NCBI GenBank assembly: GCA_017656505.1 | Contig: JACDNU010000001.1 | Coordinates: 1-64,000, forward strand | DNA from: Archaeoglobus sp. | GTDB taxonomy: Archaea > Halobacteriota > Archaeoglobi > Archaeoglobales > Archaeoglobaceae | Length of the DNA: 64,000 nt | Direction of reading: 5' to 3' | In this document: positions 18,489 through 23,102 of the stretch, piece after piece | How positions within the stretch are numbered: position 1 is the stretch's first letter | Layout of the letters: the number at the start of each line of letters is the position of its first letter | The notes under the pieces: model-generated | What the model saw: only the letters and a program-made list of their open reading frames with translations | The model's database searches: none | What the model was told of the DNA's origin: nothing | Made by a program: the position numbers and the translations under genes

Positions 18489-18657
18489 CTGGTTTACCCT
18501 AACCCCATAAAAATCACCTCTTTCACAAATAATCATGAAAGAATTAAAAATTTGTGGTGAGCGATATCTAACTTTTAGATCTATCTTGCATCTATTGCCA
18601 AACTTACTGTAAAATCCATAACCCAAAGAATTAATACCTCAAAACCAAGGAATAGAT

Positions 18658-18713
18658 GGGCAATGATGAAAGGACCCCTCTGAAGGGTGATGAGGGTATT
18701 GAGTTCTGAGCCC
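18658..18713 (+). ncRNA. C/D box sRNA (2'-O-methylation guide)
   Basis: GGGC stem - C box ATGATGA (18663-18669) - 10-nt guide AAGGACCCCT - D' CTGA (18680-18683) - AGG - C' GTGATGA (18687-18693) - 12-nt guide GGGTATTGAGTT - D CTGA (18706-18709) - GCCC stem. Confidence 0.88.
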
Positions 18714-18754
18714 TAATCAATTTTCCATGAACTTTTCATAAACTCTTCATGAAT

Positions 18755-23013: not shown

Positions 23014-23102
23014 GGGGCGGTAGGGTAGCCTGGTTATCCTTCCGGCTTTGGGAGCCAAGGCCAGAAAAGCCGGCGACCGGAGTTCAAATCTCCGCCGCCC
23101 CA
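23014..23102 (+). tRNA. tRNA-Pro (anticodon TGG) with a 15-nt intron at 37/38 (23053..23067)
   Basis: Acceptor GGGGCGG/CCGCCCC, T arm CGGAGTTCAAATCTCCG, anticodon stem CCGGC/GCCGG, loop TTTGGG|intron|A; BHB TTTG-GGA / CAGA-AAA. Confidence 0.88.

Follow-up and report, generated by a model that had tools for sequence, protein, structure and literature searches.

The window analyzed here, a 64 kb stretch of Archaeoglobus DNA, contains a gap (18627-18754) between two minus-strand ORFs, and in this gap lies a 56-nt element whose ends pair in a 4-bp stem (GGGC/GCCC). According to the first-pass annotation, 18658-18713 (+) encodes a C/D box guide sRNA; the features that it described, namely four boxes matching the consensus perfectly, a 10-nt and a 12-nt guide, and a paired stem, are all present. 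It had also described the element as antisense to the flanking genes; the element is indeed on the strand opposite to its minus-strand neighbors, but it does not overlap them. The features are listed in Table 1.

Table 1. Features of the sRNA locus in the window. Counts refer to the 52 homologous sequences described in the text.
Feature	Position	Strand	Basis or remark
C/D box sRNA gene, terminal stem to terminal stem	18658..18713	+	sequence, homologs, Rfam
Terminal stem, 5' arm GGGC	18658..18661	+	pairs with 18710-18713
C box ATGATGA	18663..18669	+	ATGATGA in 51/52, GTGATGA in 1/52
D' guide AAGGACCCCT, 10 nt	18670..18679	+	proposed target: tRNA-Leu variable arm AGGGGUCC
D' box CTGA	18680..18683	+	invariant, 52/52
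D'-C' spacer AGG	18684-18686	+	sequence
C' box GTGATGA	18687..18693	+	RTGATGA in 52/52
D guide GGGTATTGAGTT, 12 nt	18694..18705	+	proposed target: tRNA-Leu(CAA) anticodon arm, methylated nucleotide C34
D box CTGA	18706..18709	+	invariant, 52/52
Terminal stem, 3' arm GCCC	18710..18713	+	pairs with 18658-18661
Predicted promoter: TATA-like box TTAATA, located 32 nt before the C box	18631..18636	+	

A C/D sRNP consists of the guide RNA with L7Ae, Nop5, and fibrillarin, and it methylates the target nucleotide that faces guide nucleotide 5, counted from box D or D'. The boxes that define archaeal C/D box sRNAs (RUGAUGA, CUGA, RUGAUGA, and CUGA) occur in the window element in this order, with guides in the range of about 10-12 nt and a 4-bp terminal stem adjoining the C/D kink-turn. 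A strict four-box pattern, searched on both strands, matched once in the 64 kb and had no match in any of 60 random sequences of 64 kb generated by a Markov model; the window also gives a single match to a relaxed pattern, versus 0.017 matches expected. In Rfam, the element scored 43.0 bits (E 5e-8) against snoPyro_CD (RF00095), just short of the 45-bit cut-off, and 34.1 bits against sR1 (RF01152), which has the same gathering score of 45. The box architecture is common to both families and the window element; both scores are under the gathering scores, and the likeness stems from the boxes, not from the guides. The genome itself encodes a fibrillarin methyltransferase (PF01269, E 2.6e-71, contig G000:C4). 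We consider it practically certain that the element is a C/D box sRNA.

A BLAST search recovered homologs in 51 of 55 Archaeoglobaceae genomes, covering all 13 genera; the conservation set comprises 52 extracted sequences, as one genome contributes two. The first-pass annotation had made its proposal depend on the boxes being conserved in close relatives, and every box is intact in 52/52 sequences. Invariant throughout the set are positions 2-7 and 9-11 of the D guide and positions 3, 4, and 7 of the D' guide. The D'-C' spacer, in contrast, is free to change (40 different spacers of 3 to 11 nt), and spacer and flanks drift among the relatives while the element stays conserved. The inner two pairs of the terminal stem form in 52/52 sequences and the third in 48/52; this third pair occurs in compensatory versions (G-C, A-T, T-A, and G-T). 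The notion that box-like motifs came together here by chance, or that the element is a decayed pseudogene, draws on the general frequency of short motifs only and has a negligible probability, as no strict match occurred in the 60 random windows and the retention of the boxes and both guide cores across 13 genera refutes it.

Relative to the C box, TATA-like hexamers are most frequent at -32/-31 (23 and 25 of the 52 loci), where the A+T content is 0.92; at other upstream positions the counts are mostly 0-7. Because the box turns up repeatedly among the relatives, at about 32 nt upstream, the sRNA is probably transcribed from its own promoter, and this peak and the conservation together argue that the gene encodes a conserved, probably independently transcribed RNA. 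The neighboring genes vary. The adjacency of truD, to which the first-pass annotation had drawn attention, is not a conserved feature: truD is found within 3 kb of the sRNA in only 7/51 relative loci. The association is incidental, and a functional tie to truD was dropped. One relative, G010, carries a second, different sRNA copy (G010:C4) resembling that of another genus; this copy may be foreign, because its assembly has a listed contamination of 4%. In relatives G037, G034, G009, and G011, the sRNA is located about 0.8-4.7 kb from the tRNA-Leu(CAA) gene; these four cases are two pairs of congeners, and we make no claim from this proximity.

As the first-pass annotation had suggested, both guides were searched against rRNA and tRNA. 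No rRNA genes are assembled for this genome; therefore, rRNA was tested in ten relatives, and no complementary 16S or 23S column conserved across genomes was found in their aligned sequences. Among the genome's own tRNAs, the best partner of the D guide is tRNA-Leu(CAA), whose gene was overlooked by the Rfam tRNA search and was located via its anticodon arm. A different gene, at 23014-23102 (+) in the window, encodes an intron-bearing tRNA that ARAGORN labels Leu(taa) and that is tRNA-Pro(UGG) by sequence; it was found in the tRNA search and is absent from the Rfam gathering scan of the window.

The duplex between the D guide and tRNA-Leu(CAA) scores 9.0 of 12 and places C34, the wobble base, at box+5. 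In the Archaeoglobus genome under study, the duplex includes two G-U pairs and a single mismatch, at position 8 (opposite G37); when this genome alone is considered, between 0.5 and 0.9% of shuffled guides reach its score. Conservation across genomes, with box+5 on the wobble base, is a stronger argument than these shuffles. Pairing was compared in the 36 genomes in which both the sRNA and the tRNA-Leu(CAA) gene were read. Guide positions 2-7 form Watson-Crick pairs with ACUCAA of the same genome's tRNA-Leu(CAA) in 36/36, as does position 11 with its partner, and position 10 forms G-C or G-U. The sole free position among 2-11 is position 8 (window 18698), which faces G37 and is T in 24, A in 14, and C in 14 of the 52 sequences. 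Positions 9-12 can pair with the first intron nucleotides of intron-bearing tRNA-Leu(CAA), and in intronless tRNA-Leu(CAA) they pair with tRNA positions 38-41; the guide therefore suits both the spliced and the unspliced tRNA. Together, these pairings make C34 of tRNA-Leu(CAA) a highly probable target of the D guide. Coevolution of the guide with the start of the tRNA intron is unproven: the intron of pre-tRNA-Ser(CGA) starts similarly, which suggests a splicing constraint.

This pre-tRNA-Ser(CGA), encoded at G000:C39:24574-24666, is a near-competitor for the D guide. Its site GACUCGAGACCU scores 8.5, versus 9.0 for tRNA-Leu(CAA) in the same genome, and also presents C34 at +5, so that the guide could act on tRNA-Ser(CGA) in addition to or instead of tRNA-Leu(CAA). 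However, the invariant T at guide position 6 would form a G-U pair with G35 of the CGA anticodon, whereas it forms an A-U pair with CAA. We regard this alternative as improbable as a whole; tRNA-Ser(CGA) may be a second substrate. Very improbable is an action on T-loop C56 (GGUUC-AA) of several tRNAs in place of C34 of tRNA-Leu(CAA). Sites in the T loop, for example GGUUCAAUUCCC, reach 8.5/12 in the genome and have a C at box+5, and a C/D sRNP of Pyrobaculum is known to make Cm56 (PMC6313347); however, pairing in the T loop requires three G-U pairs at positions 1-3, directly beside the box, and with tRNA-Leu(CAA) the T-loop duplex gains a mismatch at position 9, and often one at position 8, in every relative. 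The guides of Thermococcus and DHVE2, moreover, are perfect over 10 nt with the anticodon arm.

In each of the genome's four tRNA-Leu that were read, including tRNA-Leu(CAA), the variable arm pairs with the D' guide at 8/8 positions, and tRNA-Leu is this guide's only perfect 8-nt match among the genome's own tRNAs; 0.9% of shuffled guides reach this score in the same genome. The duplex is only 7-8 nt long; many relatives have G-U pairs in it, and no compensatory change stands out. On balance, we lean toward the tRNA-Leu variable arm as the target of the D' guide. There is a considerable chance that this guide has another target (rRNA, SRP RNA, RNase P RNA, or an mRNA) or is an orphan, since its positions 9-10, which are fairly conserved and mostly AA, are unpaired with tRNA-Leu, and since tRNA-guiding sRNAs usually carry one orphan guide, according to PMC7994747. 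A 23S site, CGGGGCTC, matches 7.5/8 in two genomes with the guide GGGCCCCG; it fails in other genera (3.5/8 in G013), whereas positions 2-5 of the D' guide pair with the tRNA-Leu site in 35-36 of 36 genomes. Both guides seem to be aimed at one tRNA, with the D' target the less certain of the two.

These duplexes bear on the nucleotides that the first-pass annotation had predicted by the box+5 rule. The nucleotides themselves (C and G) were correct, but the exact complements AACUCAAUACCC and AGGGGUCCUU are not found whole in tRNA-Leu(CAA): the D complement is interrupted by a single mismatch (opposite G37), while pairing of the D' guide ends after 8 nt. The earlier interpretation, which had named no target RNA, is supported in part, and the target can now be proposed as tRNA-Leu(CAA), with good support for C34 (D guide) and moderate support for a G in the variable arm (D' guide).

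The element is very probably an Archaeoglobaceae C/D sRNA that guides Cm34 formation in tRNA-Leu(CAA), with the D' guide probably on the variable arm. Its transcription, RNP assembly, and methylation of the target are steps that we infer. The sRNA, probably made from its own promoter, would assemble with L7Ae, Nop5, and fibrillarin; the D guide would bind the anticodon arm, before or after removal of the intron, and direct 2'-O-methylation of C34 to Cm34. The D' guide would probably pair with the variable arm of tRNA-Leu and place a 2'-O-methyl group on the 3'-terminal G of the GGGG run; alternatively, it would serve as a second clamp on the tRNA. The pairing face of m1G is blocked, and guide position 8 may be free because G37 is already m1G when the guide docks; m1G37 may thus be made before docking. 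This scheme gives an unannotated guide RNA a target, and it predicts that a single tRNA receives up to two methylations, with position 37 modified before position 34. In systems other than this one, 2'-O-methylation of position 34 tightens the reading of the third codon base (PMC7668247).

A scan of GTDB genomes for a pattern combining D' box, C' box, TTGAGTN, and CTGA matched at least 117 stretches. Among the 80 matches listed, 79 are archaeal and 1 is bacterial; they include Thermococcales, Archaeoglobi, Methanothrix, Thermoplasmata, DHVE2, and Nitrosopumilus, as well as Fervidicoccus, Marsarchaeota, Heimdallarchaeota, Micrarchaeota, and Diapherotrites. The guides of Thermococcus and DHVE2 complement the anticodon arm of tRNA-Leu(CAA) from the same genome perfectly over 10 nt. 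Since the guide is fixed by its target, the D-guide core shared across phyla may go back either to one inherited gene or to repeated inventions. Archaeal C/D guides are described as fast-evolving; despite this reputation, a guide for wobble methylation appears to have been kept family-wide and is recognizable in many archaeal phyla. In three records, an HgcF H/ACA RNA is found at a distance of about 1 kb from the sRNA's Thermococcus relatives.

The second guides of these homologs differ in their fit to tRNA-Leu. The D' guide of Thermococcus fits the D arm (7.5 of 8; shuffles 0.9%) and that of one Methanothrix the D loop (10 of 10; shuffles 0.03%), and no match to tRNA-Leu beyond chance was found for the D' guides of DHVE2 and a second Methanothrix. 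The latter two rule out a general redirection of the D' guide to tRNA-Leu. A broader reading, which we judge rather doubtful, is that of an archaea-wide guide for C34 of tRNA-Leu(CAA) whose second guide was redirected by lineage to other parts of tRNA-Leu (the variable arm in Archaeoglobaceae, the D arm in Thermococcus, and the D loop in one Methanothrix) and whose free D position reflects prior m1G37. If true, this would be a two-handed tRNA-Leu guide, against the one-orphan-guide pattern reported in PMC7994747.

In three Pyrococcus species, a C/D sRNA directed at the first anticodon nucleotide of tRNA-Leu(CAA) is already on record (PMC7994747). For P. furiosus, PMC7668247 cites C34 of tRNA-Leu(CAA) and G47 of tRNA-Leu(UAA) as predicted sites, and its mass spectrometry did not detect these two methylations in the tRNAs analyzed; for C34, this counts against the target proposed here. 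The Pyrococcus sRNA, likened here by its description, agrees with the window element in its C/D type and in having a D-type guide on C34, whereas the Thermococcus homologs differ from the window element in the sequence of their D' guide (CTCGGCAG), in having a longer spacer between D' and C', and in lacking a strong end stem. Because the Pyrococcus C34 guide had already been reported, the window element is a further case of this guide type. In the literature consulted, we have not found its near-invariance in Archaeoglobaceae and the likely second guide on one tRNA described; older Archaeoglobus small-RNA catalogs may list the element.

The genome's own tRNA-Trp(CCA) gene (G000:C5:90682-90818, minus strand) has an intron with C/D boxes, which is the classic intronic guide arrangement. 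The guide in the pre-tRNA-Trp intron (Cm34/Um39) and the haloarchaeal guide for Cm34 of tRNA-Met (PMC2584109) are likewise of the C/D type and directed at a tRNA wobble nucleotide; in these systems, too, the tRNA may carry an intron, and the pairing can reach into it. In contrast to both, the window element has a different tRNA as its predicted target, is a free-standing gene, and suits spliced as well as unspliced tRNA-Leu.
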